Virus record (IMG/VR): IMGVR_UViG_3300032291_002781
Span: 1-31,392 of that record
Direction: 5' to 3' (one strand)
DNA: 31,392 nt
Source: a virus
This document shows positions 2,893 to 31,392 of the stretch, in pieces (the stretch's first letter is position 1; the number at the start of each line of letters is the position of its first letter). The position numbers and the translations under genes are program-made. The notes beneath the pieces are model-generated. The model was not told the DNA's origin, did no database searches, and saw only the letters and a list, made by a program, of their open reading frames with translations.

Positions 2893-3561
2893 ATGAAAAA
2901 AATAATAACATTAACGGAATCAGATTTAACTAGAATTGTTAAACGGGTAATTGAGGAACAATGGTGGTTGGCGTTTGCTGAAGCTGCCGTTTCGGAAGGA
3001 CCTGGAATGGGATGGGGTCCAGATATTAATTTTGGTGGTGGTGTTAGTGATGCTGGTGACCCTAAAAGTTTAAAAGACACACAAGCTCAATTAAAAAAAG
3101 TGCGGACTTTAATACAAACTGCAACAAATTCAAAAAATAAAATTAATAAAAGATGTTCACCCTATAATACTATAAAAATACCTAAAGCCAATGCTGGTGA
3201 GATACAAGACTTTTTAATTGCAATTGGTCATAATATAGCAAAAGATTGGACTTTTGGTGATGGGACGGCAACAGCACTTGGGACATATTTTTATGGGACC
3301 AAACCTGGAATAAACTCTGTTTCAAAATTATGGACCAAACTTAATGGTGAAGGTTATGATGTTGGTACAACATCTGGTTTTGGACCAAAAATGGCAACGG
3401 CTGTGGCCTCAAAAATAAACACAATTATCGGTAAGGTTAAAAGTGGTTGCAACACAGAATTAACAAAAATAGATAAAAGTTTAAGTAATTTAAATAAAAC
3501 AAAAAGTAAACTTGAAGATTTGGAATATAAGTTTTCACCAAAAATTAAATATTCGGCATAA
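2893..3561 (+). CDS. Leader-bearing 222-aa protein of unknown function
   Basis: 222 aa. A textbook leader copy (L-T-E-S-D-L-T-R-I-V-K-R-V-I-E-E) with I20-E21-E22 followed by Q, the preferred residue after the predicted cut. After it comes an alanine- and glycine-rich stretch with G-W-G-P-D-I-N-F-G-G-G, then a lysine-rich helix. A glycine-rich central part (F-G-D-G-T-A-T-A-L-G-T-Y-F-Y-G-T) precedes a C-terminal coiled-coil-like segment (L-S-N-L-N-K-T-K-S-K-L-E-D-L). No family recognised. A good terminator follows. The Gly-rich segment just after the cut resembles the linkers in other large leader proteins here. Confidence 0.8.
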   Translation: MKKIITLTESDLTRIVKRVIEEQWWLAFAEAAVSEGPGMGWGPDINFGGGVSDAGDPKSLKDTQAQLKKVRTLIQTATNSKNKINKRCSPYNTIKIPKANAGEIQDFLIAIGHNIAKDWTFGDGTATALGTYFYGTKPGINSVSKLWTKLNGEGYDVGTTSGFGPKMATAVASKINTIIGKVKSGCNTELTKIDKSLSNLNKTKSKLEDLEYKFSPKIKYSA

Positions 3562-4095: not shown

Positions 4096-4578
4096 ATGAA
4101 AATCATAATTACAGAATCTCAAAACGAATCATTAAAAAATAATTTAATGAAACTTATTAATCGTTCCGGATTTGATGCCGGAGTGAAGGCCGTTGGTTCA
4201 TTTGATAGATTGGTAAATATAATTGGAAAAGAAACCGTTTATTCCATTCTTGTTAAACACGGATTTGACCCTGTAAATAATCTTAAAATAGTTCAATCAC
4301 GATTTGATGTACCAAGAGGTTTTTTTGAACAACAATTTGGATTTATTTCAGTTGTTGGGATTAATACATTATTAAACCGTTTTGGACCAATGTTTTTATT
4401 TATGATTGATAACAAATATTATTTATATCAAAATCAACATAAAGAAAATTTATTTGTTGGTGAATACGATGGTTTAATTCCGGAAGAAAGTTTTCAAAAT
4501 TCAATTCTTTATCCCCTTGGTCTTAAAGGACTTGACATAGGAAAAGTTATTGACCTTTATTATACCGAGGAAAACTAA
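4096..4578 (+). CDS. Leader-bearing 160-aa protein
   Basis: 160 aa. Starts M-K-I-I-I-T-E-S-Q-N-E-S-L, the short ITE-type leader. The body has repeating hydrophobic stretches (V-Y-S-I-L-V-K-H-G-F-D-P, F-G-F-I-S-V-V-G-I-N-T-L-L-N-R-F, M-F-L-F-M-I) but none long enough for a confident membrane span. No cysteine and no recognised catalytic motif. It heads a run of three ITE-leader genes (4096, 4591, 5506), but the second has its own TATTTAT box. Function unknown. Confidence 0.75.
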   Translation: MKIIITESQNESLKNNLMKLINRSGFDAGVKAVGSFDRLVNIIGKETVYSILVKHGFDPVNNLKIVQSRFDVPRGFFEQQFGFISVVGINTLLNRFGPMFLFMIDNKYYLYQNQHKENLFVGEYDGLIPEESFQNSILYPLGLKGLDIGKVIDLYYTEEN

Positions 4579-4590: not shown

Positions 4591-5502
4591 ATGAAAATCT
4601 TAATAACAGAAGAACAATTTTATAACCTCATCCCTCCGGTAGTTAGAAGGAGAATGACCGAAAAAGATTTTGGGATTCTTTATGATATTATTGATAATAA
4701 TAAAAGATATTATGTTGCACAAGATTTTGATAGGTACCTTGAGGGTAATTTACGTGATTCTTTAAATGAGTTTATTCACGATTATAAAGTAGAAGAAATT
4801 GACCCAAACCTTGATAATGATGATTGGGATGATGAGGAAAATACTAAATATAAAATTTTTTGGCAATTAATTCCATTTCTAAAAAAGAAATATCACGATG
4901 ACTTATATGATTATCATATGGAGTATCATAGACGACGTGGGAATATAAATGAATCACAGTACGAAAAAATACAAAACCAGATTTTAAACTCAATTAAAAA
5001 GAATGGGTTTTATAAGACTATGAATGCTTATAAATTAAATATTGAGAGTCTTCATAAAATATTTGGTGAAGGTAATTTACCAAAATTTGATTGTCGTGAT
5101 TTGTATCAAATATTTTCATACTTTGTTTTTAAAAATTTAGTTCAGACTGAATTTGAAATTAAAAAAAATGGGTCAATTAGTTTTTATGTTGATAATTTTT
5201 CCGGTACTAATTTCTTTAGAAGAAAATTCAAAGATTCAACTATGATTGATGGTTATGCAACACCTTACTTTGATGGTAATTGTAATTTACCTCTGGATGC
5301 TGATTATTACGTATATGACATTAATGACGATGAAGAGCCAAATGAAGTTGATATTGTGGGTAACTATCAAGAATATGTTAAACTACCAAAACAATGGAAC
5401 TCATTTATGGAAATAAAAAACTGGCTTGAGAATGACTATGTTAAAATTTTAATTGATTACACAAATAATGTTTATGATAAACTGGGTGACTATCGTGATT
5501 AA
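4591..5502 (+). CDS. Two-part leader protein, R-R-R-M-T-E-K-D-F family, member 2
   Basis: 303 aa. Residues 1-10 (M-K-I-L-I-T-E-E-Q-F) are the leader. Residues about 15-115 repeat the family domain of gene 2408: R-R-R-M-T-E-K-D-F, L-N-E-F-I-H, E-E-I-D, L-I-P-F-L-K-K-K-Y. Residues 119-127, I-N-E-S-Q-Y-E-K-I, look like a second internal leader that opens a new, longer domain (about 130-303) containing F-K-N-L-V-Q-T-E-F-E-I-K and many acidic residues. The simplest reading is fusion of two formerly separate leader proteins, which would make I119-N-E-S a possible internal processing site. No function recognised for either part. Confidence 0.8.
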   Translation: MKILITEEQFYNLIPPVVRRRMTEKDFGILYDIIDNNKRYYVAQDFDRYLEGNLRDSLNEFIHDYKVEEIDPNLDNDDWDDEENTKYKIFWQLIPFLKKKYHDDLYDYHMEYHRRRGNINESQYEKIQNQILNSIKKNGFYKTMNAYKLNIESLHKIFGEGNLPKFDCRDLYQIFSYFVFKNLVQTEFEIKKNGSISFYVDNFSGTNFFRRKFKDSTMIDGYATPYFDGNCNLPLDADYYVYDINDDEEPNEVDIVGNYQEYVKLPKQWNSFMEIKNWLENDYVKILIDYTNNVYDKLGDYRD

Positions 5503-5505
5503 ATA

Positions 5506-6168
5506 ATGAAAATAATAATAACAGAAAATCAAAAAAAATTATTACATCTTCACCGAAGAATTGGTGAGATTGAAGATATACTTAAAGAGTATGAAAATCT
5601 TTTTATCCGTACCGCCAAAGGTTTGGACAAAGATGGTTTTATTCATGCGACATCTATGTTTATTGGTGATATAATTGCTGGAAGACTAGAAGATGAAAAT
5701 GTTGATTTTGATTATGTTACTTTTAGAAATCAAATTAAAAGATTTGTTCAGTCACATTTTTATCAAGAATTAGTAGATTTTTATCATAAACATAAAAAAC
5801 AATTAACAGAATCCAAGGATAAAAGGTTATTTGATGAATTATCTGATTCTCTTAAACGAAGATTAACCCAGGATGATTTTGATTATCTTGATAAAGAATT
5901 AACACATTATATTTTATCTACACCACCGGTAAACAAGTTTGAAGAGTTTTCCAGTTATGTTATTGGAGATCTTCTTCACGAATTTATTATTGCTAGAAAA
6001 GATGATGAGATTGAGACCGAGGAGGATCCGGAATATGGTGTCGTTTATGTTGAAAAAAGTAGAAATAAAATTATGGATGTGTATTGGGAATTAAAACCAA
6101 TTCTTGAGAAAAGATATAAGGACAGATTATATAAAGCTTGGGAAAGAAAAAAATCAATTGGTTTGTAA
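5506..6168 (+). CDS. Two-part leader protein, R-R-L-T-Q-D-D-F family, member 3
   Basis: 220 aa, 3 bases after the previous stop, no TATTTAT box of its own. Residues 1-13 are the leader (M-K-I-I-I-T-E-N-Q-K-K-L-L). Residues about 15-95 form a helical region unrelated to its neighbours. At residues 99-110 comes Q-L-T-E-S-K-D-K-R-L-F-D, an internal leader-like stretch followed directly by S-L-K-R-R-L-T-Q-D-D-F and the rest of the family domain, ending L-E-K-R-Y-K-D-R-L-Y-K-A-W. The internal junction copies the leader-to-domain junction of gene 2408 almost exactly, so this gene looks like a fusion that kept the second partner's leader. Confidence 0.8.
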   Translation: MKIIITENQKKLLHLHRRIGEIEDILKEYENLFIRTAKGLDKDGFIHATSMFIGDIIAGRLEDENVDFDYVTFRNQIKRFVQSHFYQELVDFYHKHKKQLTESKDKRLFDELSDSLKRRLTQDDFDYLDKELTHYILSTPPVNKFEEFSSYVIGDLLHEFIIARKDDEIETEEDPEYGVVYVEKSRNKIMDVYWELKPILEKRYKDRLYKAWERKKSIGL

Positions 6169-6207: not shown

Positions 6208-6585
6208 ATGAAAAAAATTATAAAACTTACAGAATCAGATTTAACAAAAATTATTAAAAGAATTGTACTTGAGGTACAAGAATCTAAAGGTGGAAAAATA
6301 ACTAGATTAACAAGTTTGGCAAATCAAGTTAGTAATGCTGAATTTCCTGGGATGCCTAAAAAGTTTGCAACCACAACAACAACTTGGGTTGTTGACCTCA
6401 CTAATGGTAATCCAAAAATTGGTGGAGTTAGTGATTTAGAAGGTAAATACTTTAAATCAAATGATACTATTGAATTATCTAGTGGTGATAAAATCTATTT
6501 TAGAGAAAAGGGTGGTAAGGAAACTTTTGGTTGTGCCGTACAAAATTCAAATAATACAATTTCTTTAAATTGTATGTACGCCTAG
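6208..6585 (+). CDS. Leader-bearing 125-aa protein
   Basis: 125 aa. Strong leader (K-L-T-E-S-D-L-T-K-I-I-K-R-I-V-L-E) with V20-L21-E22 at the consensus site. The putative mature part is about 100 residues, rich in G, T, N and S with alternating strands (T-T-T-W-V-V-D-L-T-N-G-N, K-I-Y-F-R-E-K-G-G-K), suggesting a small beta-rich fold. Two cysteines lie near the C-terminus (F-G-C-A-V-Q and L-N-C-M-Y). No recognised family. It is followed by a host-type promoter for the next, untagged gene. Confidence 0.78.
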   Translation: MKKIIKLTESDLTKIIKRIVLEVQESKGGKITRLTSLANQVSNAEFPGMPKKFATTTTTWVVDLTNGNPKIGGVSDLEGKYFKSNDTIELSSGDKIYFREKGGKETFGCAVQNSNNTISLNCMYA

Positions 6586-9055: not shown

Positions 9056-10000
9056 ATGAGTTATTATTTAAAAAATTTATTAAATGAGTCTGAAAAAAGA
9101 CGAATTTTAGGTCTTCACGAAAATCGTAAACAATCCGAGTGGAGAGGTTTGATTATAGAGCAAACACAAGCTGAAGTTCAAGCTTTCTTTGAAAAAAGAA
9201 AAACAAAAATGAAAAACTTCCCAACAAACGGAAATTTGGAACCATATAAAGGAGCTGACGGTAAAGAACAATTTGTTTGGAAAACAAATGATGGTATATT
9301 TTTATTTATGGATGGTACGGCAATGAAAGATGGTGTTGTAGCAACAAATAGGTGGTATGGTCAATTAAGTCCTGATGAACTTGCAAAAATGCCAACATTA
9401 AAACAAACAGAAATACAATCTAAGACAAGTCCAGAAGCTTTTGTATCAACACCTAGCACTCCTGGTTCAGGACCTCAAGGTATGATGACGGGTAGGGAAG
9501 TTAGTCAAGGACGAAGAGCTTTAAAAAAAGAGTTAAAAGCCGCAAAAAAACAATTAAAAAAAGAAAATAGAAAAAATATACAAAATTGTTTAACATATTT
9601 TAAAAATTGGGAAAAAGACTGGAATCAAAAAGATGAGGCATTACAAGTCATTGTTAAAGAAACATCACCAAATTATAAAGCTTATGCAACATTTTTAAGT
9701 TCTTGTTGTGACATTTTAAATGCAAATGGAAAACAACCCGCACTTGTTGGACTTTGTTCAACTAAGGGTGTTGAGCCAGAAACAGTACTAGGTTCTGGAC
9801 CAACAAACCCAACTGCAAATAACCCAGTTTCTGGCGCACCAGCCGCTGGTACTGAAGTTATAGGTGCAATACCACCAAGTAACTCAATTGCAAATACACC
9901 GGTTGGTACTGGTATGCCAACACAAGGAACTACAACACAAGCTCGCCCTACTAGAAGTAGAGAAGATCAAGAAATGATAGATCAAGGATTAGGTCAATAA
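9056..10000 (+). CDS. Leader-bearing 314-aa protein with Pro/Thr-rich tail
   Basis: 314 aa. Leader L-L-N-E-S-E-K-R-R-I-L-G-L-H-E-N (residues 8-23), then a site I33-I34-E35 followed by Q. Residues 36-110 contain W-K-T-N-D-G-I-F-L-F-M-D-G-T, a short beta-like segment. Residues about 155-180 are a strongly basic helix (L-K-K-E-L-K-A-A-K-K-Q-L-K-K-E), followed by a region with C-C and aromatic residues. From about 245 on the chain is low complexity, rich in P, T, G, N. Probably cotranscribed with 8540 (12 bases apart). No enzyme motif seen. The basic helix could contact DNA; that is inference. Confidence 0.77.
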   Translation: MSYYLKNLLNESEKRRILGLHENRKQSEWRGLIIEQTQAEVQAFFEKRKTKMKNFPTNGNLEPYKGADGKEQFVWKTNDGIFLFMDGTAMKDGVVATNRWYGQLSPDELAKMPTLKQTEIQSKTSPEAFVSTPSTPGSGPQGMMTGREVSQGRRALKKELKAAKKQLKKENRKNIQNCLTYFKNWEKDWNQKDEALQVIVKETSPNYKAYATFLSSCCDILNANGKQPALVGLCSTKGVEPETVLGSGPTNPTANNPVSGAPAAGTEVIGAIPPSNSIANTPVGTGMPTQGTTTQARPTRSREDQEMIDQGLGQ

Positions 10001-10651: not shown

Positions 10652-11290
10652 ATGAAAAATATAGTAATTGAAAATTTAAATTCAAAATCTTTAATTGATG
10701 ATATTGTAAAATTTTTAACATTAGGTATTGATATTTCTGTCGTTGATAAAATTGATGAACCGGAAAATGATGAAAAAATTAATGATAATAAATTACCCTC
10801 GGATGTTGAAGCGGCAATTAATAAGTTAAAGAAAACTTATAATTTAAATATAACACAAAATCATATTGATAAAGAATTTAAACAAGAAGGCGAAACAAGA
10901 AAAGATGCTGGGGGAGTAAATATTGAGGCACAATCTGAAGTACTTAAATTAATTAAAGATTGTAAAACGGCAAATCCAAATGTTAATTATCCGGCAAATA
11001 TTGTTTCTAGTTATAGGAGTTATAGTCAACAAATATCTAATTTTGGTAGTAAGGCGAAATCAAGAGGCATTGACGATACTCAAGCATCAAATACATTACC
11101 TGGTTTTAGCCAACACCACACAGGAAAAGCTTTTGATATTTTTAGCACTGAAGAAAGTTGGTGGGACGCAAACCCAAGTGTTGAGAAATGGGTTGCAAAT
11201 AATTCAAAAAAATATGGGTTTGATGTTACATATAAAACACAAGGTCCGGTTAGAAAACCAGAACCTTGGCATTTATATTATATTGGTTAA
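10652..11290 (+). CDS. M15 family (VanY-like) peptidoglycan peptidase
   Basis: 212 aa. The C-terminal domain (about 85-212) is an M15 zinc peptidase: S-S-Y-R-S with R122, S153-Q-H-H-T-G-K-A-F-D162 fitting SxHxxGxAxD with zinc ligands H155 and D162, and E204-P-W-H207 fitting the catalytic Glu and third ligand. Such enzymes cut D,D or L,D bonds in stem peptides and serve as phage endolysins. Residues 1-30 contain S-L-I-D-D-I-V-K-F-L-T, a leader shared only with the next gene, followed by an acidic linker. There is no secretion signal, so export would need a holin or delivery from the virion. It heads a five-gene operon. Endolysin is most likely; a virion-borne wall enzyme is the alternative. 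Confidence 0.9.
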   Translation: MKNIVIENLNSKSLIDDIVKFLTLGIDISVVDKIDEPENDEKINDNKLPSDVEAAINKLKKTYNLNITQNHIDKEFKQEGETRKDAGGVNIEAQSEVLKLIKDCKTANPNVNYPANIVSSYRSYSQQISNFGSKAKSRGIDDTQASNTLPGFSQHHTGKAFDIFSTEESWWDANPSVEKWVANNSKKYGFDVTYKTQGPVRKPEPWHLYYIG

Positions 11291-11301
11291 TAAATTTTAT
11301 T

Positions 11302-11862
11302 ATGGGAAATAGACAAAGAATAAATGAATCTCTAATTAATGACTTAGTTTCTTTTTTAACTAGTTCATTATCTGATTTGACAATATCATCAAGTGATAAT
11401 ACTAGTGTTGATAAACCAACAATGAGTGATGATGAAATGTATAAAAAAATTTTACAAGGAATTGGAGCTCCAGTTACAGATGAAAATATGAAATTTTTTT
11501 ATGGGTGGAGACAAGCTGAAAGCGCTAAAGCGGCATTTAACCCATTTAATACAACAAAGAAAAAAGAAAACGCATCATTTTATAATTGTTTAAAAAGAAA
11601 AGATGGTGTTTGTGTTGGTGGTGTTAGAAATTATAAATCACAACAAGAAGGTATTGACGCAACAGTTGAAACTCTAAAACTATCATATTATGACTGTATA
11701 ACTAACGGTTTAAGAAATAATATTGGTGCTAAAAAAATAGCTAAAGGTTGTAGGTCTGAACTTAAAACTTGGGGTACCGGTGATCTTGTTACTAAAGTAC
11801 TTGATGGTAAATCGGTAAACCCACCAGATATTGCAACATCACCAGGTAAAATAGTCACATAA
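11302..11862 (+). CDS. Lysozyme-like / glucosaminidase-like peptidoglycan hydrolase
   Basis: 186 aa. The start at 11302 (M-G-N-R-Q-R-I-N-E-S-L-I-N-D-L) avoids overlap with the previous gene; an upstream ATG at 11266 would lie inside that gene. Residues 8-20 (E-S-L-I-N-D-L-V-S-F-L-T) match the N-terminus of the M15 protein. The main domain has the order typical of a phage transglycosylase-like family: W-R-Q-A-E-S with a candidate acid Glu, F-N-P-F-N-T-T, then G-G-V-R-N-Y-K-S-Q-Q-E-G-I-D-A-T-V-E-T-L. It probably hydrolyses glycan strands next to the M15 enzyme. The catalytic residue is inferred from the pattern, not proven. Confidence 0.75.
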   Translation: MGNRQRINESLINDLVSFLTSSLSDLTISSSDNTSVDKPTMSDDEMYKKILQGIGAPVTDENMKFFYGWRQAESAKAAFNPFNTTKKKENASFYNCLKRKDGVCVGGVRNYKSQQEGIDATVETLKLSYYDCITNGLRNNIGAKKIAKGCRSELKTWGTGDLVTKVLDGKSVNPPDIATSPGKIVT

Positions 11863-13135: not shown

Positions 13136-13729
13136 ATGAAATGTTTATTCACAATATTATTATTATTTTTTACTTTTAATACCTTTAGTCAATGTAATGG
13201 GACACAATCTTTTACTCTAACTCCACCGCCAGTTGGAGGAACATATTTACCCGGACAAACCGTTACAATGTGTTATACTATGAATGGTTACACCCAAGCT
13301 GGTACTAACTGGATTGAGGGTTTTGACTTAAATCTAGGTCCTGGTTGGGCGTCTGTTGCACCACAATCGGCACCAGCAAACTGTGGTGGTAATGCAACAG
13401 GAGGTCAATGGGTATGGAAGACTTCTGTAACATCAACAACAACACCAATAGTGACTGTAGGTCCAGGATATTTCTTTGATCTAACCGTTGACGGAAACCC
13501 CGGAAATGATTTTGGTGATGCCGGTAGTTGTGTGTGGACATTTTGTGTAACTTTAACAGTTGCAAACGTATGTACACCCCAAAACTTATTAATTCAAGTT
13601 ACACCAGGATCTGATGGTCTATGGGGGAGTTATACTAGTACTTCTTGTGATTTAGCAACACCATTTAATGTATTTAACGGAACAATAAACGCAACCCCAA
13701 TTGTATTGGGACCAATAAACCATAATTAA
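13136..13729 (+). CDS. Secreted protein, first of T9SS-linked trio
   Basis: 197 aa. The start at 13136 gives a clean Sec signal peptide: M-K-C-L-F-T-I-L-L-L-F-F-T-F-N-T-F-S-Q, with cleavage probably after F-S. The mature part is rich in T, G, P, N and cysteine, with beta-sandwich-like strands (G-T-Y-L-P-G-Q-T-V-T-M-C-Y-T, W-V-W-K-T-S-V-T, C-V-W-T-F-C-V-T-L-T-V), typical of Ig- or PKD-like extracellular modules of Bacteroidetes. The last residues are G-P-I-N-H-N, close to the S-P-I-Q-H-N end of the next protein. It is not tagged with the head leader. Likely exported to the periplasm or surface during infection. Confidence 0.75.
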   Translation: MKCLFTILLLFFTFNTFSQCNGTQSFTLTPPPVGGTYLPGQTVTMCYTMNGYTQAGTNWIEGFDLNLGPGWASVAPQSAPANCGGNATGGQWVWKTSVTSTTTPIVTVGPGYFFDLTVDGNPGNDFGDAGSCVWTFCVTLTVANVCTPQNLLIQVTPGSDGLWGSYTSTSCDLATPFNVFNGTINATPIVLGPINHN

Positions 13730-13738
13730 ATAAAAAAA

Positions 13739-14320
13739 ATGAAAAGAATTTTACTAATTTTAATGACAATGATATCGACAATTTCGTTATCACAACTATC
13801 AACAGTTAATCCGGATACAGTTTGTTATCAATCAACCGCACTATCAACCTATACAGTCCCTTCTGTTGGCTCCGGAACATACACTTGGACTGTTACAGCT
13901 CCTGGTGTGATAACAACTGGTCAAGGAACTAATAGTATTTCTGTAAACTGGTCAGCCGCAGCTCCTGGATTAATAACAAATGGTGTGTCGGTAACATATT
14001 CTTCACCTCCACCAGCAAACTGTCCTGCAACACCGGTTAATTTAAATGTTTTAATCTATCAAGTAATACCAACAATTACCGCAATAGGACCATTTTGTGA
14101 GTCAGACCCTTGTGTTACACTTGTTGGTACACCAGTTGGTGGTACTTGGTCTGGTTTAGGTGTTTCTGGAAACCAATTTTGTCCAGATAACGTAACAAAT
14201 GGTACTAACGCAACATCAACCGTTACATATACAGTAGGTTCTGCTGGTTGTACATTCACAACATCTGTTCTTGTACCAGTATATGGAACACCAACATTAT
14301 CACCTATACAACATAATTAA
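13739..14320 (+). CDS. Secreted Ig-like protein, second of trio
   Basis: 193 aa. Signal peptide M-K-R-I-L-L-I-L-M-T-M-I-S-T-I-S-L-S-Q. The mature part reads like two Ig/PKD-type modules: G-S-G-T-Y-T-W-T-V-T-A-P-G-V-I-T near residue 43 and a second with G-P-F-C, G-G-T-W-S-G-L-G-V and a T-V-T-Y-T-V strand. These are common in Bacteroidetes surface adhesins that end in gliding-type domains. It ends S-P-I-Q-H-N. Its stop overlaps the next start by one base (TAATG), so translation of the three is coupled. Function in a phage unknown. Confidence 0.75.
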   Translation: MKRILLILMTMISTISLSQLSTVNPDTVCYQSTALSTYTVPSVGSGTYTWTVTAPGVITTGQGTNSISVNWSAAAPGLITNGVSVTYSSPPPANCPATPVNLNVLIYQVIPTITAIGPFCESDPCVTLVGTPVGGTWSGLGVSGNQFCPDNVTNGTNATSTVTYTVGSAGCTFTTSVLVPVYGTPTLSPIQHN

Positions 14321-14886
14321 TGAAATATTTTGTTTTCATATGGTTTTTAATAACATCGTTAATTGTTTTAGGACAACAAACATTTGAATTGTGTGCCGGA
14401 CAAACTAAAACAGTCACATATACAACAATTTCAGGTGGTGACGGATCAAATATATGGTCTGTAAATGGTGATACTTACCTATCAGAAGACTTAATATATA
14501 CTTTTAATCAAGCTGGTACATATAATATTGTCGTAAAAAGAGAAAATGGTCCTTGTTATGTTGAGGAAACCTTACAAGTACTTGTTACAGACTGTCCTGG
14601 GAACATTTACTGGATTCCAAACTGCTTTACACCAGATGGGAACGAACATAATCAACTATTTGGACCAGTTATGACTGAAGGATTTGATGTAAACGGGTTT
14701 GAATTTTATATTTTTAACCGTTGGGGTGAGGTTGTATGGGAATCTAACAACCCAAATAGTCGCTGGGACGGTACTTTTGACAATAAAATGTGTACAGAAG
14801 GTGTTTATATATGGAAAATGAAGTTTAATGTCTTTGGTGATGATGGAAAAATAGAAAATCACGGACATTTAACCTTAATTCGTTAG
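14320..14886 (+). CDS. Secreted protein with gliding-motility/T9SS type B C-terminal domain
   Basis: 188 aa. Signal peptide M-K-Y-F-V-F-I-W-F-L-I-T-S-L-I-V-L-G-Q. Residues about 20-90 are a PKD-like module (G-D-G-S-N-I-W-S-V-N-G-D, F-N-Q-A-G-T-Y-N-I-V-V). Residues about 98-188 match the gliding-motility-associated C-terminal (CHU_C) domain: I-P-N-C-F-T-P-D-G-N-E-H-N-Q, F-E-F-Y-I-F-N-R-W-G-E-V-V-W-E-S, W-D-G-T-F, G-V-Y-I-W-K-M-K-F and a terminal H-L-T-L-I-R. In Flavobacteriia this domain directs cargo through the type IX secretion system (type B). So the product is expected on the host surface. It lies in an operon with two other secreted proteins, and could alter adhesion, motility or receptor access. 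The domain is clear; the role is inferred. Confidence 0.88.
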   Translation: MKYFVFIWFLITSLIVLGQQTFELCAGQTKTVTYTTISGGDGSNIWSVNGDTYLSEDLIYTFNQAGTYNIVVKRENGPCYVEETLQVLVTDCPGNIYWIPNCFTPDGNEHNQLFGPVMTEGFDVNGFEFYIFNRWGEVVWESNNPNSRWDGTFDNKMCTEGVYIWKMKFNVFGDDGKIENHGHLTLIR

Positions 14887-16182: not shown

Positions 16183-16740
16183 TTATTGTCCTTTTGCAAG
16201 ATTAATACATTGTTTTAAATATTCTTTTGCTCTTGCTGAAGGTGTGAACTCATCTTCTTTTGTTTGAAGTGCTAAAACCCTTTCAATATCTTTAACTAAT
16301 TCAGTTCCATGTTCATTTTCTTTATATAGTTCAGCTATTTTATCCATAGCTTTATGACATTCACCGGTCGTTTCATCGTGATAGTTTTTATTTCTAAAAC
16401 GATTTAAATGGTTCATCATCTCATAAGCTAAATGTGATCCACCATCTTTAATATCGTTTGCCCAACGAAGATTGTTTAAAATTCCTAACGTATCAACCAT
16501 AGAATTAACACCCATCCTTCTCTTTTTAATTCCCGGTGAATATTTTACATAATCATCAGCATTACCAACAATCTCTTCAAGAGGAATCATATTTTCAGGA
16601 ACACATCTTGGTTTTGGTGGTTCCTTCTTTTTATTTTCTTTTGTTTCACCAGCAACTTGCGGTAGCTGCATTTGATTTTCTTTAAGTACTCTTTTTATAA
16701 CTTTTATAAGATCACTTTCGGTTAATCTAATTTTTTTCAT
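16183..16740 (-). CDS. Leader-bearing helical 185-aa protein, minus strand
   Basis: 185 aa. The leader K-K-I-R-L-T-E-S-D-L-I-K-V-I-K-R-V-L-K-E appears intact on the minus strand, with L19-K20-E21 at the consensus site. Then a basic/proline linker (K-E-N-K-K-K-E-P-P-K-P-R) leads to a helical domain with R-R-M-G-V-N-S-M-V-D-T-L-G, W-A-N-D-I-K-D-G-G-S-H-L, H-L-N-R-F-R-N-K and a cysteine near each end. The linker right after the predicted cut is what a mature N-terminus would look like. Function unknown. Its presence on both strands shows the leader is tied to the protein, not to a local duplication. Confidence 0.78.
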   Translation of the reverse strand: MKKIRLTESDLIKVIKRVLKENQMQLPQVAGETKENKKKEPPKPRCVPENMIPLEEIVGNADDYVKYSPGIKKRRMGVNSMVDTLGILNNLRWANDIKDGGSHLAYEMMNHLNRFRNKNYHDETTGECHKAMDKIAELYKENEHGTELVKDIERVLALQTKEDEFTPSARAKEYLKQCINLAKGQ

Positions 16741-18488: not shown

Positions 18489-19367
18489 ATGTCTAAAAGA
18501 TTTATTATAACAGAAGGTGAAAGAAACCAAATAAAAAAACTTTATGGTTTGTTAACCGAACAAGAAAATACAACTGGTTGTACTTTTAGTGATGTTTATA
18601 AAAATACTTTAAGTGACTATAATGGGATAATGTCTAAATATGGTAATGACGTTAATAAAGTTTCTGAAGCTTTAACAATTAAAGCAAAAGAAATATTACA
18701 GAATGTAAGAAATAAAGATCAAAATGAAAATCTTGAGATTAGGTCTGCTTGTCAAGTTGCTTTAAATACTATAAGACCAAATTACCAAGATAAACCTTGG
18801 TTAATAATAGACCAGGTTAAAAATACGGTATATTTTTTTGATAATGGTGGAACATATTTAACCGGTACTTTAGCAATTATGGGAAAAGACAAACCAACTA
18901 AAGAATTTGAAAATTGGTCTAAAATGAGTTATGATGAAAGAGTTAAATCCGGTCTTGGCGACCCAATATCAAGAGTCGGAGGTAGATTTGCACCTAGTGG
19001 TACGTTTAACGCCGGACCTGGACAAACCTACACCCAATATACTGGCGCTGGAACACCAGAAGACCCAAAAAAAAATCTTTGGTCTTTTTTTGATGACGCC
19101 GGTAAAGAATTAGTACAAGCAATACACGGAGTTAAAGATACTAAAGAAAGAATTGATGCTTTTAAGTGTGTAAATGGTACAACACTTACTAAAGATACTA
19201 ATTTAGATTTATCTAGTGGTTGTATAAATTTACCAACAAGTTTTTTAGATAAATTAGGTAATATGGGAATTGATATATCCAAATATAGAATTTTTAGTTT
19301 AGGCGATAAAGACTATCTTGTTAAAAATTCATCAAATATTGACAACTCAAATATCACATCCGCATAG
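18489..19367 (+). CDS. Leader-bearing L,D-transpeptidase-like (YkuD fold) protein
   Basis: 292 aa. Leader R-F-I-I-T-E-G-E-R-N-Q-I-K-K-L-Y-G-L-L-T-E-Q (4-25), with L22-T23-E24 followed by Q25. After a linker and helical region the YkuD-type catalytic domain starts at P103-W-L-I-I-D-Q-V-K-N-T-V-Y-F-F. It carries H213 (A-I-H-G-V) and the nucleophile motif S242-S-G-C245-I-N. Classical L,D-transpeptidases have [ST]-H-G-C-[IV]-[RN], so the usual His before Gly is Ser here. These enzymes form 3-3 crosslinks in peptidoglycan or attach proteins to it. No secretion signal; with the head leader, injection with the DNA is possible. It overlaps the opposing GMP reductase gene by 14 bases. Confidence 0.78.
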   Translation: MSKRFIITEGERNQIKKLYGLLTEQENTTGCTFSDVYKNTLSDYNGIMSKYGNDVNKVSEALTIKAKEILQNVRNKDQNENLEIRSACQVALNTIRPNYQDKPWLIIDQVKNTVYFFDNGGTYLTGTLAIMGKDKPTKEFENWSKMSYDERVKSGLGDPISRVGGRFAPSGTFNAGPGQTYTQYTGAGTPEDPKKNLWSFFDDAGKELVQAIHGVKDTKERIDAFKCVNGTTLTKDTNLDLSSGCINLPTSFLDKLGNMGIDISKYRIFSLGDKDYLVKNSSNIDNSNITSA

Positions 19368-20316
19368 TGTATTTAACAGTATCTAAACAAGATAAATCAC
19401 TTGGATTACCACCAGCATATGAAATTGCACTTTGTAAAGATTCCTCAACTTCGGTTAATTTGTTAAAAATAGATTGATTTTTATATGGGATTAATTTTTT
19501 GATACCCTCAACCCTATTAGTTTTTCCAGATTGTGACGATGACGCACTGCCCCAGAATGCCTTATATTTTTTGGAGTTTTCTTCGATTAAACTACCTGGA
19601 GATTCATTATATCCGGCAAACATACCACCAACCATAACCATTGACGCACCTAAAACTAAACTTTTAACAATATCGCAATGTTCTTTTATAGACCCATCAG
19701 CAATAATTGGAACCTTTGATACTTTAGCACATTTTTTTATCATACTAGCTTGCCAACCACGATTACCAAACCCTGTTGAGTGGTATGTTGTACAAGCAGA
19801 TCCACCACCAATACCACATTTAATTGCATCACAACCCCATTCTGTTAAATCTTCTACAGCTTCCGGAGTACAAACATTTCCACCAATTAAAAAAACATCT
19901 GGCATTCTATTTTTAATGTATTTAACCATTTTTTTCATCTTAATACAATGTCCGTGAGCAATATCAATTGTAATAAAATCTGGGATTAAATCTTTTGTTA
20001 CCAAATTATCGATTAATTCATAAGAATCATCATTTACACCAACAGAAATTGATGAAATTAAATTTAATGTTTTCATTGTCTCAACAAATAAAACCTCATC
20101 AATATCAAATCTATGTAAAATATAAAAGTATCCGCTCTTAGCTAACTCTATTGCTAATTTGACATCAATTATACTTTCCATATTAGCCGGAACAACCGGT
20201 AGTTTAAATGTATGATTACCAAACTTACAACTTGTATCACAATCAGACCTACTTTCAATATAACTAAAATTCGGTAATAATGTTATATTGTCAAAATCAA
20301 ATATTTTATTTTTCAT
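19354..20316 (-). CDS. guaC: GMP reductase (type II GuaC)
   Basis: 320 aa, close to the usual length of the bacterial enzyme. IMPDH/GMPR barrel features: P43-A-N-M-E-S, D118-I-A-H-G-H, G145-G-N-V, then G168-I-G-G-G-S-A-C175-T-T with catalytic C175. T181-G-F-G-N-R-G-W-Q and A206-D-G-S-I-K-E-H follow the pattern of Gram-positive GuaC rather than IMPDH, whose CBS insert is absent. It reduces GMP to IMP with NADPH, releasing ammonia, and so redirects host guanine nucleotides. No leader, no TATTTAT box, probably expressed early or constitutively. GMP reductase versus IMP dehydrogenase is judged from motifs; a minimal IMPDH lacking CBS is the alternative. Confidence 0.88.
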   Translation of the reverse strand: MKNKIFDFDNITLLPNFSYIESRSDCDTSCKFGNHTFKLPVVPANMESIIDVKLAIELAKSGYFYILHRFDIDEVLFVETMKTLNLISSISVGVNDDSYELIDNLVTKDLIPDFITIDIAHGHCIKMKKMVKYIKNRMPDVFLIGGNVCTPEAVEDLTEWGCDAIKCGIGGGSACTTYHSTGFGNRGWQASMIKKCAKVSKVPIIADGSIKEHCDIVKSLVLGASMVMVGGMFAGYNESPGSLIEENSKKYKAFWGSASSSQSGKTNRVEGIKKLIPYKNQSIFNKLTEVEESLQSAISYAGGNPSDLSCLDTVKYTMRM

Positions 20317-20977: not shown

Positions 20978-21397
20978 ATGAGAGGATTACCAGAAAAATA
21001 TAACCAAAAGATTGAAACAATTAAAAGGGCAATTTTAGTTAGATCAGGATTTATGTCTGAATTTGGGAATAAAGTATCTCTTGAATTGACTGGTGGTGAT
21101 GCAAGTGGGTATGGTGGTACTGAAAAATTTAAAATTTATGAATTAGTTTTTACTTTAGAGATAAACGAAGTTTTAGATTGTCCCGATTGTGCACATAACC
21201 CAGATGAAATTTTGGATGTTATAACCGAATATCAAGAAAAAATATACAAAGCAGCAAAATTTTATGTGGATGAAGATTTAACAATTAAATCTGGTAATTC
21301 TCTAAGAGGTGTTTTAGTTAATGGCTTTAGGTTTAGTTGGGATGAAATTCACAATCTCCAACTTGAAATATTTTTTGATGTGGCAAATGACTATTAA
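20978..21397 (+). CDS. Unknown 139-aa protein
   Basis: 139 aa, 4 bases after the HExxH gene, M-R-G-L-P-E-K-Y-N-Q-K-I-E. It has a glycine-rich turn (L-T-G-G-D-A-S-G-Y-G-G-T), a C-P-D-C pair near residue 70 and acidic strands (V-F-T-L-E-I-N-E-V-L-D). No leader. The stop overlaps the stop of the opposing gene at 21394 by 4 bases. Function unknown; its pairing with a metalloprotease candidate is the only hint. Confidence 0.68.
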   Translation: MRGLPEKYNQKIETIKRAILVRSGFMSEFGNKVSLELTGGDASGYGGTEKFKIYELVFTLEINEVLDCPDCAHNPDEILDVITEYQEKIYKAAKFYVDEDLTIKSGNSLRGVLVNGFRFSWDEIHNLQLEIFFDVANDY

Positions 21398-22011
21398 GAT
21401 TTAAACCTTTTTACAATTTCTTGGATTAGCCTTTTAACAAAGGCACCACTAAAACTAACACTAACAAAAGATACAATTCTTAAAATAGTTTCTCTTAAAT
21501 CTAAAGGCTCATTACCTTGAGCGACTTCATATAAATCTGGAATTAAAGGTATTAAAAAAGTATATGCTAACATATTACTAATTTTAGAAACCGGAATTGC
21601 TAAACTATTAACAAAATTAAAAAAAGTTTCTTTTAATTTTGCTGCAATCTCTAAAGTCTTATCAAATTCAAAAATAAGCCCTCTTTCTTTTATTTTTTCT
21701 AAAACTTTATGTAACATTTCTTTATTTGATTCATAATATGTTATTATTATTCCAGTAGAAAGTAATGCTAAATCTGAATTTGATAATTCCGGAAAAGAAC
21801 CACTAATGTATTGTTGAACCGGTGATACAAAACCTGCAATTGTTACACCCCAAGTTGTTAAAAAACTTAAATCTAACCCAATTTGTTTTTTTGATTCACT
21901 AGAAACTTTTTTAAAAAAATCTTTAAGCTCGTCTATCTTATTTTCAAGACTTTTTAATCTAGATTCAAGTAATATTTTTTTATATTGAGATTCTGTTATT
22001 ATTATCTTCAT
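21394..22011 (-). CDS. Leader-bearing membrane protein, minus strand
   Basis: 205 aa. Short leader M-K-I-I-I-T-E-S-Q-Y-K-K-I-L-L-E-S with L14-L15-E16 followed by S. Then a coiled-coil stretch (L-E-N-K-I-D-E-L-K-D-F-F) precedes several hydrophobic segments: L-T-T-W-G-V-T-I-A-G-F-V, L-A-L-L-S-T-G-I-I-I-T-Y-Y, M-L-A-Y-T-F-L-I-P-L-I-P and I-V-S-F-V-S-V-S-F-S-G-A-F. It is thus probably a polytopic membrane protein yet carries the supposed head leader, which suggests delivery with the DNA or a different use of the leader. Divergent from gene 22045, with back-to-back promoter boxes between them. Confidence 0.75.
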   Translation of the reverse strand: MKIIITESQYKKILLESRLKSLENKIDELKDFFKKVSSESKKQIGLDLSFLTTWGVTIAGFVSPVQQYISGSFPELSNSDLALLSTGIIITYYESNKEMLHKVLEKIKERGLIFEFDKTLEIAAKLKETFFNFVNSLAIPVSKISNMLAYTFLIPLIPDLYEVAQGNEPLDLRETILRIVSFVSVSFSGAFVKRLIQEIVKRFKS

Positions 22012-23850: not shown

Positions 23851-24093
23851 ATGCAATTAGAAGATTTAATCCAGTTAATGGAAAAATATACTTTTGATAA
23901 CACTAGTGACGGTGAGTTAGACGAACAAGATGCTGCTCCGGCTGCCGATTCTGGTGGAGGTGGTGGTGGTTACCCAACTGTTACAAAGTGGGAAACCGGA
24001 TTAACAAGAAGTGTTGCAAATACTATTGATGATAAAGTTACTTGGTCGTCATTATATAAAATTACAAGAGGAAAAGCAAATACGTTATTATGA
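23851..24093 (+). CDS. Small leader-variant protein with Gly run
   Basis: 80 aa. M-Q-L-E-D-L-I-Q-L-M-E-K-Y, then L23-D24-E25 followed by Q26 at the predicted cut site, then A/P/D and a run of six glycines ending Y-P-T-V-T-K-W. The C-terminal 40 residues contain W-E-T-G-L-T-R-S and W-S-S-L-Y-K-I-T-R-G-K. The layout (helix, E-Q, flexible linker, small domain) is a miniature of the larger proteins downstream. It overlaps the next gene as ATGA, so the two are translationally coupled. Confidence 0.7.
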   Translation: MQLEDLIQLMEKYTFDNTSDGELDEQDAAPAADSGGGGGGYPTVTKWETGLTRSVANTIDDKVTWSSLYKITRGKANTLL

Positions 24094-25010
24094 GTAGAAT
24101 AATCACATTAACGGAAAATGATATAACTAAAATTGTAAAGAAAGTTCTTTATGAAGATAGAAAAAATATTTTAGAACAGGATCGTGATGGTGATGGTGTT
24201 TTGGATAAAAATGATAATTGTCCTGATGTTCCCGGTAAAAAAGAACTTAACGGTTGTCAACCATTAACAAAAACTGTTGACATTAAAGGTTCACCATTAA
24301 ATTTTTATGGTGAAGTTAAACAAACATTTGGTGACGCACTAACAAAAGTTTTTTTAAATACAAATGACCCAAACGCTACCGTAAAATATTATCAAGATTT
24401 AGGATCCGATAAGACAACATTAGGTGCTAGGTTATACTCAATGTGTTACGCATCATTATCAACTTATGCTAGGTCAAATGAGAATATGTATTTTCAAAAT
24501 AAAGAAATAACAAATTGTATTTCAGACAGTAAACAAAGTTTAAGTGCTCTAAATCAAAAAGCGCCATTTTTAGTTACACAAGGACCAAAAGATTTATTTT
24601 ATTTATATTTCCAATGTGGAGAATATGGTAATTATAGAAATCAAAATATGCAGTATAAATTTTATCCCGATGGTTGTAATACTAGTAATATTACTGGGGA
24701 ACGTGGTTATTATAATTGGGCAACTGACAAATGGTTACCAGTTAGAACAAAAACAACAGTACAACAACCAATAAAAAAACAGATACCGAAACCAAAAGAA
24801 AAAGAATTAACTAAAAATTTAGCTGACTTTGAAATAACAGGAACAAAGGGGTCGACAAATAAAACAAATGACTCAAAAGCCAAAGAAACAAAAGGTACTG
24901 ATTTAGGTGTTGAGGGTGGTAAAAAAAGTGATTTTGGAAGTACTAATAATTTAGTACCAAATACTGATAGTAAAAGTAAAAATGATACTTTTAGTTTAGA
25001 ATTAAATTAA
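24090..25010 (+). CDS. Leader protein with thrombospondin type 3-like Ca-binding repeat
   Basis: 306 aa. Leader I-I-T-L-T-E-N-D-I-T-K-I-V-K-K-V-L-Y-E (4-22) gives L20-Y21-E22; a second site N-I27-L28-E29 followed by Q30 comes just before D31-R-D-G-D-G-V-L-D-K-N-D-N-C-P-D. That D-x-D-x-D-G-x-x-D spacing is a calcium-binding TSP3/OmpA-linker-type repeat, with C44 and C56 likely paired. The following 150 residues hold several cysteines (M-C-Y-A, Q-C-G-E-Y-G). From about residue 215 the chain is polar and low complexity, and it ends D-T-F-S-L-E-L-N, the same last six residues as the next protein. Confidence 0.78.
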   Translation: MSRIITLTENDITKIVKKVLYEDRKNILEQDRDGDGVLDKNDNCPDVPGKKELNGCQPLTKTVDIKGSPLNFYGEVKQTFGDALTKVFLNTNDPNATVKYYQDLGSDKTTLGARLYSMCYASLSTYARSNENMYFQNKEITNCISDSKQSLSALNQKAPFLVTQGPKDLFYLYFQCGEYGNYRNQNMQYKFYPDGCNTSNITGERGYYNWATDKWLPVRTKTTVQQPIKKQIPKPKEKELTKNLADFEITGTKGSTNKTNDSKAKETKGTDLGVEGGKKSDFGSTNNLVPNTDSKSKNDTFSLELN

Positions 25011-29385: not shown

Positions 29386-31392
29386 ATGAGAAATTTAATA
29401 AATGAAGTTCATGTGACTGGTAACTGTACTGGTAAAGGGTTTAATGATAAAAAATCCACAACTAGTATAAAACCAACTTGGTATGAACAAGACGCAACAA
29501 CATATGAATATTGTGAAGATGGTATCGGTTCTGCAAAAAGATATTATAGAAAACTTAAAGTTGTTACAACAACTACAACAAGAAACCCAATCGTAACAAC
29601 AACTACAACAAGAAATCCGATTGTTACAAACACCTATTCTGTTTGTTCTGGACCAACTTATTCAAATGGCTGTAAAGATAGTGGTGCACCAAATCCTAAT
29701 GGTATTATATATAAAGTACAAGGATGTATTGGTGCGAGTCAAGATAGTAAATTTGGACCAAAAACAGAAAAAGCCCTTAAAGCAAAAACTGGTAAAACAA
29801 CATTTAAAGAAAGTGATGTTGAGAATATTTGTAAAGGTGTTTCAGTTGATGACCAATCACCTAATAATCAAGGTGGTACAATACAAAAACCGGAAGAACA
29901 AAAACAATTTTTTGAGAAACTAGAAAGTAGAGGAAGAATTGGTAATGGATATATACAACAGTTAGCACCAGAAATTTATAGTAAATCCGGTTCGTTCCAA
30001 TATGAGTACACGTATGTTAAAAAATATGAATGCGTTAAAGATGGTGATAAAATTGTTTCTGTTGGAAATGAAATTCCAATTACAAGTAAATCAGACGTTG
30101 TAAATAGTGATAAATTTTTATATATACTGTTATTCTCCGATTTAGTTTATGGTATAATGACTAATAAAGGTAGGATAAATATGTTAGGATATAAAGGAAA
30201 ATGGTCGCCAGATGATGCTGGTGCTTCTAATATATTTATGGAATCTAAAAGAAATAGAAAAAGATATATTAGTGAACAAAATATTGATTTTAGTGAAATA
30301 TTAGGAACAGCATGGTCGTTTAATCCAAGTAGTACAACAAATCAAGGTTCAAGTAGTACAACAAATCAAGGTTCAAGTAGTTCTAACGTAACAAGTAATT
30401 TTAATGAGGCTGTAGAGACTGAAAAAGTTATGGGTCCTATAAAAGAAAAGGCTTTAAAAATTATTGATGAGTGGGATGAAAGTAATTCAAAAAAATTGGC
30501 TATTAATCCAGCTAAAGGTAGGATTAATACCGAAATTGATAACGCAAGAGCTCAAATACAAGGAAAAAACCCTAAAGATTTTTGTAGTCCACAAAATAAA
30601 GCTGAATTGGCTAAAGCAAAAGAAGATATCGCAAAAAAGAAAGCTGAGTTGAGACTAGCTTTAAGTAAAGAAGATGAATCATATATGGGTCAATTAGAAT
30701 CTTTATTAGGTCAAGTTGAATCACAATGTTCTGAAATTGAAAAGAAAAAAAGACAATCACAAAATACTAGTAGTAACCAAGGTTCAGGTAGTCAAGGTTC
30801 AGGTAGTCAAGGTTCACCAACAGTAGTAAGTGGTAGTAGAAAAGATGAACTAAGAAAACTATTTGGATTTGTTGATAAAGATGGGAATACAAGGAATCCA
30901 AAAAGTGCTGTAATGAGAATGAATAAAATTCCAGAAAAAGGAATTAATGGTGGTGGTAGTATTCAATTTGCAATAAATAATTATGATGCAAAATCAGAAT
31001 GGTTTGAAGATTATAATGAATTAATGGATGCTGAAGGTTTAAGTGAGTATAAATTAAGATTTCCAGATGATTATGAAGTTACGGAATTTGCCGGTCAAGT
31101 AATCGATAAAGAAAATTATGCTGATTTAGTACCAAGAAAAAGTGATGCTAGAGAACAGTATAAAAGATTTACTTTTGGTAAATTTTTAGAAACAGAATCA
31201 AATTTAGAAATTTATCAAGTACAATCTGGTACAGGTGAAGCCCAAACAATTGGTACACAATGTAAAGATGAACCAGAAGTTGTTAGAGAAAAACTTAAAA
31301 ATTATTTAGAAGCTGCGTTTAGTGCTGATAGAAAATTTAGAGGAAACCAAAAAGAATTAGATTATTTTGAAAGATGTTTAGTAAAAAGAAAA
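29386..31392 (+). CDS. Very large protein, 3' end beyond window; PG-binding-like domain
   Basis: ATG at 29386 opens a frame with no stop for 669 codons to the last base, so the gene is cut by the window end. N-terminus M-R-N-L-I-N-E-V-H-V is a shortened leader. T-T-T-T-T-R-N-P-I-V is repeated twice at residues 61-80. Residues about 108-150 (I-Y-K-V-Q-G-C-I-G, D-S-K-F-G-P-K-T-E-K-A-L) match a peptidoglycan-binding-1 type module. Residues 285-298 (M-E-S-K-R-N-R-K-R-Y-I-S-E-Q) are an internal leader-like segment with I-S-E followed by Q. Serine/glutamine/glycine linkers and helical segments follow. It starts 11 bases after 29374 and is probably cotranscribed. Confidence 0.8.
   Translation, partial: MRNLINEVHVTGNCTGKGFNDKKSTTSIKPTWYEQDATTYEYCEDGIGSAKRYYRKLKVVTTTTTRNPIVTTTTTRNPIVTNTYSVCSGPTYSNGCKDSGAPNPNGIIYKVQGCIGASQDSKFGPKTEKALKAKTGKTTFKESDVENICKGVSVDDQSPNNQGGTIQKPEEQKQFFEKLESRGRIGNGYIQQLAPEIYSKSGSFQYEYTYVKKYECVKDGDKIVSVGNEIPITSKSDVVNSDKFLYILLFSDLVYGIMTNKGRINMLGYKGKWSPDDAGASNIFMESKRNRKRYISEQNIDFSEILGTAWSFNPSSTTNQGSSSTTNQGSSSSNVTSNFNEAVETEKVMGPIKEKALKIIDEWDESNSKKLAINPAKGRINTEIDNARAQIQGKNPKDFCSPQNKAELAKAKEDIAKKKAELRLALSKEDESYMGQLESLLGQVESQCSEIEKKKRQSQNTSSNQGSGSQGSGSQGSPTVVSGSRKDELRKLFGFVDKDGNTRNPKSAVMRMNKIPEKGINGGGSIQFAINNYDAKSEWFEDYNELMDAEGLSEYKLRFPDDYEVTEFAGQVIDKENYADLVPRKSDAREQYKRFTFGKFLETESNLEIYQVQSGTGEAQTIGTQCKDEPEVVREKLKNYLEAAFSADRKFRGNQKELDYFERCLVKRK
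29566..29625 (+). repeat. 30-base direct repeat, two copies
   Basis: Two in-frame units (29566-29595 and 29596-29625), each encoding T-T-T-T-T-R-N-P-I-V, differ only at synonymous third positions. That pattern suggests selection on the threonine linker rather than a recent duplication. Confidence 0.75.
30331..30380 (+). repeat. Short Ser/Thr/Gln linker repeat
   Basis: Two copies of about 24 bases encoding S-S-T-T-N-Q-G-S, and further on (30781-30816) three G-S-G/Q-G-S units. Flexible linkers within the truncated large gene. Confidence 0.6.

Follow-up and report, generated by a model that had tools for sequence, protein, structure and literature searches.

Here we report a three-gene locus in which a virus encodes a small cargo protein of the type IX secretion system (T9SS) together with two further proteins that share a conserved C-terminal tail. 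The locus lies in IMG/VR record IMGVR_UViG_3300032291_002781, of which positions 1 to 31,392 (31,392 nucleotides; hereafter the window) were analysed. The trio is real, conserved and phage-borne, and the product of its third gene is confirmed by sequence as T9SS type B cargo. We propose, with a confidence that is evenly balanced, that the trio is a split modular adhesin whose subunits are joined by their tails and which is exported and anchored on the Bacteroidota host by the host T9SS. The novelty lies in the division of a type B system among three genes and in the tail; phage-encoded T9SS cargo, of type A, is already known (PMC7468147).

The gene trio and its type B sorting domain

The open reading frames (ORFs) of the trio (Table 1) coincide exactly with the span of 13136-14886 given in the preliminary description. 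Gene1 and gene2 are separated by a 9-bp gap, and the stop codon of gene2 overlaps the start codon of gene3 by 1 nt (TAATG), an overlap that recurs in 58/82 loci. All three N-termini are hydrophobic, signal-peptide-like and end in SQ or GQ. Judged by a hydropathy proxy for signal peptides, 96-97% of the copies (78 per gene; 97% for gene3) passed the threshold, compared with 8% of 1036 other ORFs, which supports the earlier description of the trio as secreted.

Table 1. Features of the trio locus, with positions in the window.
Feature	Position	Strand	Basis or remark
gene1, head subunit, 197 aa	13136..13729	+	ORF; ATG at 13136
gene1 C-terminal tail GPINHN	13709..13726	+	all 26 aligned heads of the window type have G-x-I-x-H-N
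gene2, linker subunit, 193 aa	13739..14320	+	ORF
gene2 C-terminal tail SPIQHN	14300..14317	+	P, I and H do not vary among 23 aligned homologues
gene3, base subunit, 188 aa	14320..14886	+	ORF; stop ends at 14886
CHU_C / Bac_Flav_CTERM domain, T9SS type B sorting and anchoring signal	14614..14883	+	PF13585, TIGR04131

Gene3 consists of a signal-peptide-like N-terminus, a PKD-like domain and a CHU_C domain (residues 99-184), which was recognised by PF13585 (49 bits, cut-off 27; E 6.6e-13) and by the NCBIfam model TIGR04131 (40.8 bits, cut-off 35; aligned to profile position 85/85). Both scores exceed the curated cut-offs, and the type B end previously ascribed to the third gene therefore stands. 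This is the sole CHU_C domain in the window record, and a Pfam search found no type A sorting domain (PF18962) in the window proteins. Within the trio the T9SS signal is confined to gene3; neither a type A nor a type B C-terminal domain (CTD) was found in gene1 or gene2 with Pfam, PHROG and NCBIfam. Like other T9SS type B substrates (TIGR04131/PF13585; F. johnsoniae SprB, P. gingivalis PG1035), gene3 combines a Sec-type signal with a type B domain, whereas the trio is very small, divided among three genes, phage-encoded and without a PorP/SprF partner gene, and its genes 1 and 2 lack a CTD. In the PDB, the gene3 family has a single sequence relative, the C-terminus of the Aureispira grappling hook protein GhpA (E 3.5e-21); GhpA is related through its CHU_C end and, unlike the trio, is a bacterial single chain of 5898 aa.

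For gene1, AlphaFold2 predicted one beta-sandwich domain (about residues 23-184; pLDDT 82), followed by the C-terminal tail. Its 25 aligned homologues show 47-91% identity, no family was matched in Pfam, PHROG or NCBIfam, and a PDB fold search returned only generic and weak beta-sandwich matches (TM below 0.6). Gene1 also matched an iota-carbonic-anhydrase over 46 aa (E 3e-5), which was dismissed as a short local similarity. Gene2 has two predicted Ig/cadherin-like domains (pLDDT 88), the first of which is a PKD_6 domain (PF19408, E 8.3e-8); the tandem Ig/cadherin matches of its PDB fold search were likewise generic and weak (TM below 0.6). Gene2 and gene3 have N-terminal domains that are homologous to each other (hhalign 93.8%, E 1.7e-7), and none of the remaining eight domain pairs compared by hhalign showed homology.

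PHROG searches recognised no capsid or terminase gene in the window; the PHROG and Pfam searches covered 32 window ORFs and revealed little about the neighbours of the trio. The phage nature of the window rests on the IMG/VR record and on terminase-bearing relatives. A VanY-type D-alanyl-D-alanine carboxypeptidase domain at 10652-11290 (PF02557, E 3.6e-21) marks a probable endolysin-like peptidase, and the product of 19354-20316 (-), which matched phrog_9582 'dehydrogenase' (E 1.7e-87), is probably an enzyme of nucleotide metabolism. By a loose pattern, 16/50 listed window ORFs have a common N-terminal motif of the MKIIITESQ or MKKIIxLTESDLTRIVKRVIEE type (429-830, 960-1484, 2063-2392, 2408-2770, 2893-3561, 4096-4578, 4591-5502, 5506-6168, 6208-6585, 9056-10000, 11302-11862, 16183-16740 (-), 18489-19367, 21394-22011 (-), 24090-25010 and 29386-31392). 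The motif resembles the capsid-targeting leaders of T4 internal proteins, and similar leaders occur at loci L008-L010.

Distribution among phages and fused counterparts

IMG/VR was scanned with each gene, and 87 contigs were considered, including the window. They contain 78 complete trios, always in the order head-gene2-gene3; many of the contigs are interrelated, and after coarse filtering for redundancy 45-48 distinct proteins remain for each gene. The trio contigs are up to 436 kb long, and a terminase was found in 10/20 long ones tested (two size classes), which led us to reject a bacterial origin of the contigs. These terminases and the IMG/VR record uphold the earlier statement that the trio is phage-encoded. 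All three genes are under purifying selection (dN/dS 0.04-0.44; window vs seven relatives), and since the trio is kept in 78 contigs at such ratios, chance is excluded as an explanation.

The neighbourhoods of the trio differ; at L004, L005 and L007 it is flanked by the window's neighbours, and at L008-L010 it stands alone between two oppositely oriented genes. This variation bears on an alternative already raised in the preliminary description, according to which the products are Ig/PKD-like proteins that decorate released virions. Ig-like domains are indeed present on many phage particles. However, PHROG searches recognised no structural protein beside the trio in the window, a T9SS sorting domain is part of gene3, and the signal-peptide-like N-termini of all three proteins would not be expected of virion components, because virions are assembled in the cytoplasm. 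Decoration is therefore highly improbable, and the least likely of the possibilities when set beside receptor masking and altered gliding.

The CHU_C domain was also sought in other phages, as had been suggested; in addition to the trio in 78 IMG/VR contigs, relatives of gene3 were present in only three annotated phage records, namely LR745206 (634,780 bp), LR756502 (642,428 bp) and a 4.2-kb fecal contig. The first two are records of uncultured phages, and the complete phage genomes of 634 and 642 kb described by Al-Shayeb et al. are predicted to replicate in Bacteroidetes (PMC7162821). LR745206 encodes a 732-aa protein with a gene2-like region followed, in the same order, by a gene3-like region (43% and 41%), and LR756502 encodes a 1670-aa CHU_C protein with a gene1-like domain near the N-terminus (41%) and a gene3-like C-terminus (32%). 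Residues 1-426 of the latter match residues 1-422 of the 428-aa head of locus L104 (67%). Domains, order and CTD family are alike in the trio and in these proteins, but the trio is split, whereas they are fused and lack the H-N tail at their joints; in the trio, the tail is positioned where the fused chain would continue. These counterparts suggest that the trio is a split version of the fused proteins or that the fused proteins are fusions of the trio. In IMG/VR, no fused protein related to that of LR745206 was found. In total, LR745206 has four CHU_C proteins and LR756502 has three (loci L014-L020 and L188-L190), with one short one in each, and a type A sorting domain is present at least once in each record as well.

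Some trios are immediately preceded by genes for large secreted proteins that end in type A T9SS sorting domains (L077, 2473-4932; L089, 2484-4934; L063, 1749-3908; L066, 2268-4484), three of these domains scoring below the Pfam cut-off (hmmscan). By their domains, some phages thus appear to have cargo of type A next to cargo of type B. Cryophage encodes type A cargo for the host T9SS as single proteins (endoglucanase, GH39, PA14; Bellas et al. 2020, PMC7468147). Cryophage cargo and the trio are both phage-encoded for the host T9SS and variable between phages, but the trio is of type B and has three subunits and a conserved tail.

The conserved tail and subunit assembly

A terminal His-Asn or His-Asp is present in 70/70 distinct complete head-slot proteins and 65/65 distinct gene2 proteins, and in 0/855 other complete ORFs of the trio loci. 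The peptides used as search queries excluded the tail, and its codons vary synonymously while the residues stay constant; sampling and recent ancestry therefore fail to explain it. Co-variation of HN and HD between gene1 and gene2 was too weak for use. Intein-like C-termini, which likewise end in HN, were rejected as an explanation on the absence of a Hint domain (Pfam, NCBIfam).

Different phages have exchanged the head gene for others with unrelated domains (Gly-rich, SprB-repeat, T9SS galactose-binding-like), yet the tail is kept. The head slot holds the 197-aa sandwich of the window, proteins of 425-428 aa in which another domain precedes the sandwich domain, and further types of 489-490, 632, 348-349 (Gly-rich), 322 and 262 aa, all with the tail. 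SprB repeats (PF13573) were found in the heads of L059 and L094 and are absent from the window trio (Pfam search).

Bacterial relatives of the trio domains are common in giant T9SS proteins. Relatives of gene1 in three Flavobacteriales genomes lie within frames of 980-1429 aa, with another in a 331-aa frame there whose examined sequence stops inside the domain. In 395 Bacteroidota genomes, where eight candidates per genome were scored, the relatives of gene2 among the matches listed (E<=1e-10) all occupy frames of 604 aa or longer. The trio might accordingly consist of captured pieces of host surface proteins with no dedicated assembly, a general adhesion or cargo set comparable to the variable type A cargo of Cryophage (PMC7468147), and the type A proteins directly upstream of the trio in several phages would fit this origin. 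We consider it unlikely, as it explains neither why the three genes keep exactly one order in 78 contigs nor the tail statistic, and no short bacterial version of gene2 was found among the matches listed in the 395 genomes.

In AlphaFold2 single-chain models of gene1 and gene2 both tails are unpaired. From this, and from the homology that gene2 and gene3 show in their N-terminal domains, we infer a polar chain of head (tail only), linker (acceptor and tail) and base (acceptor and CHU_C), in which the tails of the head and of gene2 would most likely bind the PKD-like N-terminal domain of the next subunit, gene2 and gene3 respectively. Gene2 would be a rod-like linker and gene1 an exchangeable ligand-binding head. 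That the subunits associate through their tails, as models and sequences suggest, is a reading to which we give slightly less than an even chance. Somewhat more tentatively, the six-residue tail (G/S-x-I-x-H-N/D) may represent an undescribed assembly signal that docks CTD-less secreted subunits onto a small type B anchor, forming an adhesin with swappable heads that is exported through a host shuttle. Strand-exchange or donor-strand pili would work in a similar way, as polar chains joined by short terminal peptides; the joining is proposed for the trio, which has no sequence relation to these pili, and the likeness implies no claim of groove insertion.

Alternatively, a host factor could bind the tails as its ligand, and their absence from the fused proteins could be incidental. 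If the H-N tail served a host factor as a signal for export or sorting, genes 1 and 2 would encode independent cargos that form no complex, and invariance of the tail across unrelated heads is what such a signal would show. However, no set of host proteins appears to use the tail; the pattern G-P-I-x-H-N-stop, which represents only the GP form, gave a single match in the 395 Bacteroidota genomes, in a non-coding 25-aa antisense frame. The fixed order with gene3 and the fused counterparts also favour association, and a sorting signal thus seems improbable.

Export and role at the host surface

Export of the trio via the host T9SS is predicted with good confidence. Sec would carry each subunit across the inner membrane, and the type B CTD of gene3 would then engage a PorP/SprF-type shuttle of the host and anchor the complex. 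Both the secretion and the anchoring of type B substrates require such a shuttle (PMC12618676, PMC9143113). In F. johnsoniae, a cognate PorP/SprF gene near the substrate is usual but not universal (9/12 type B substrates), and three orphan substrates use one common shuttle (PMC12618676). A PorP/SprF shuttle was found in 0/27 phage records, while the positive control yielded 18-21 copies each in three bacterial genomes; a host shuttle must therefore serve if the adhesin model is right. The missing PorP/SprF, which type B substrates normally need, and the lack of a CTD in genes 1 and 2 count against that model, and no documented case of co-export of CTD-less partners by the T9SS was found in the literature consulted.

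Phage type B proteins without a shuttle of their own could also act by titration, a small type B protein occupying scarce PorP/SprF so that host adhesins like SprB are kept off the surface, with genes 1 and 2 as accessories. Substrates and shuttles are required stoichiometrically and shuttles are scarce (PMC12618676); moreover, mutations in gliding-motility genes cause phage resistance, and SprB and RemA may be receptors (PMC13288928). Such a decoy, however, could dispense with genes 1 and 2, and titration leaves the swapped heads, the tails and the strict three-gene order unexplained, which makes it quite improbable.

For the tail-joined adhesin, a role at the surface of the infected cell is moderately probable. 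The likely gain would be altered binding to the infected cell, such as receptor masking against superinfection, or a change in adhesion. Altered gliding and mimicry of adhesins, suggested in the preliminary description, are further candidate effects. Since gliding adhesins have been linked to phage adsorption (PMC13288928), receptor masking is an appealing possibility, although superinfection exclusion specifically is rather doubtful. If the model is true, large aquatic phages change the surface of the Bacteroidota they infect by means of a purpose-built modular adhesin delivered by the gliding and secretion machinery of the host, and the tail would be a short peptide signal for the assembly of T9SS-linked subunits. 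It would also offer a handle on the blocking of superinfection or on changes in adhesion in hosts whose gliding adhesins are the suspected phage receptors.
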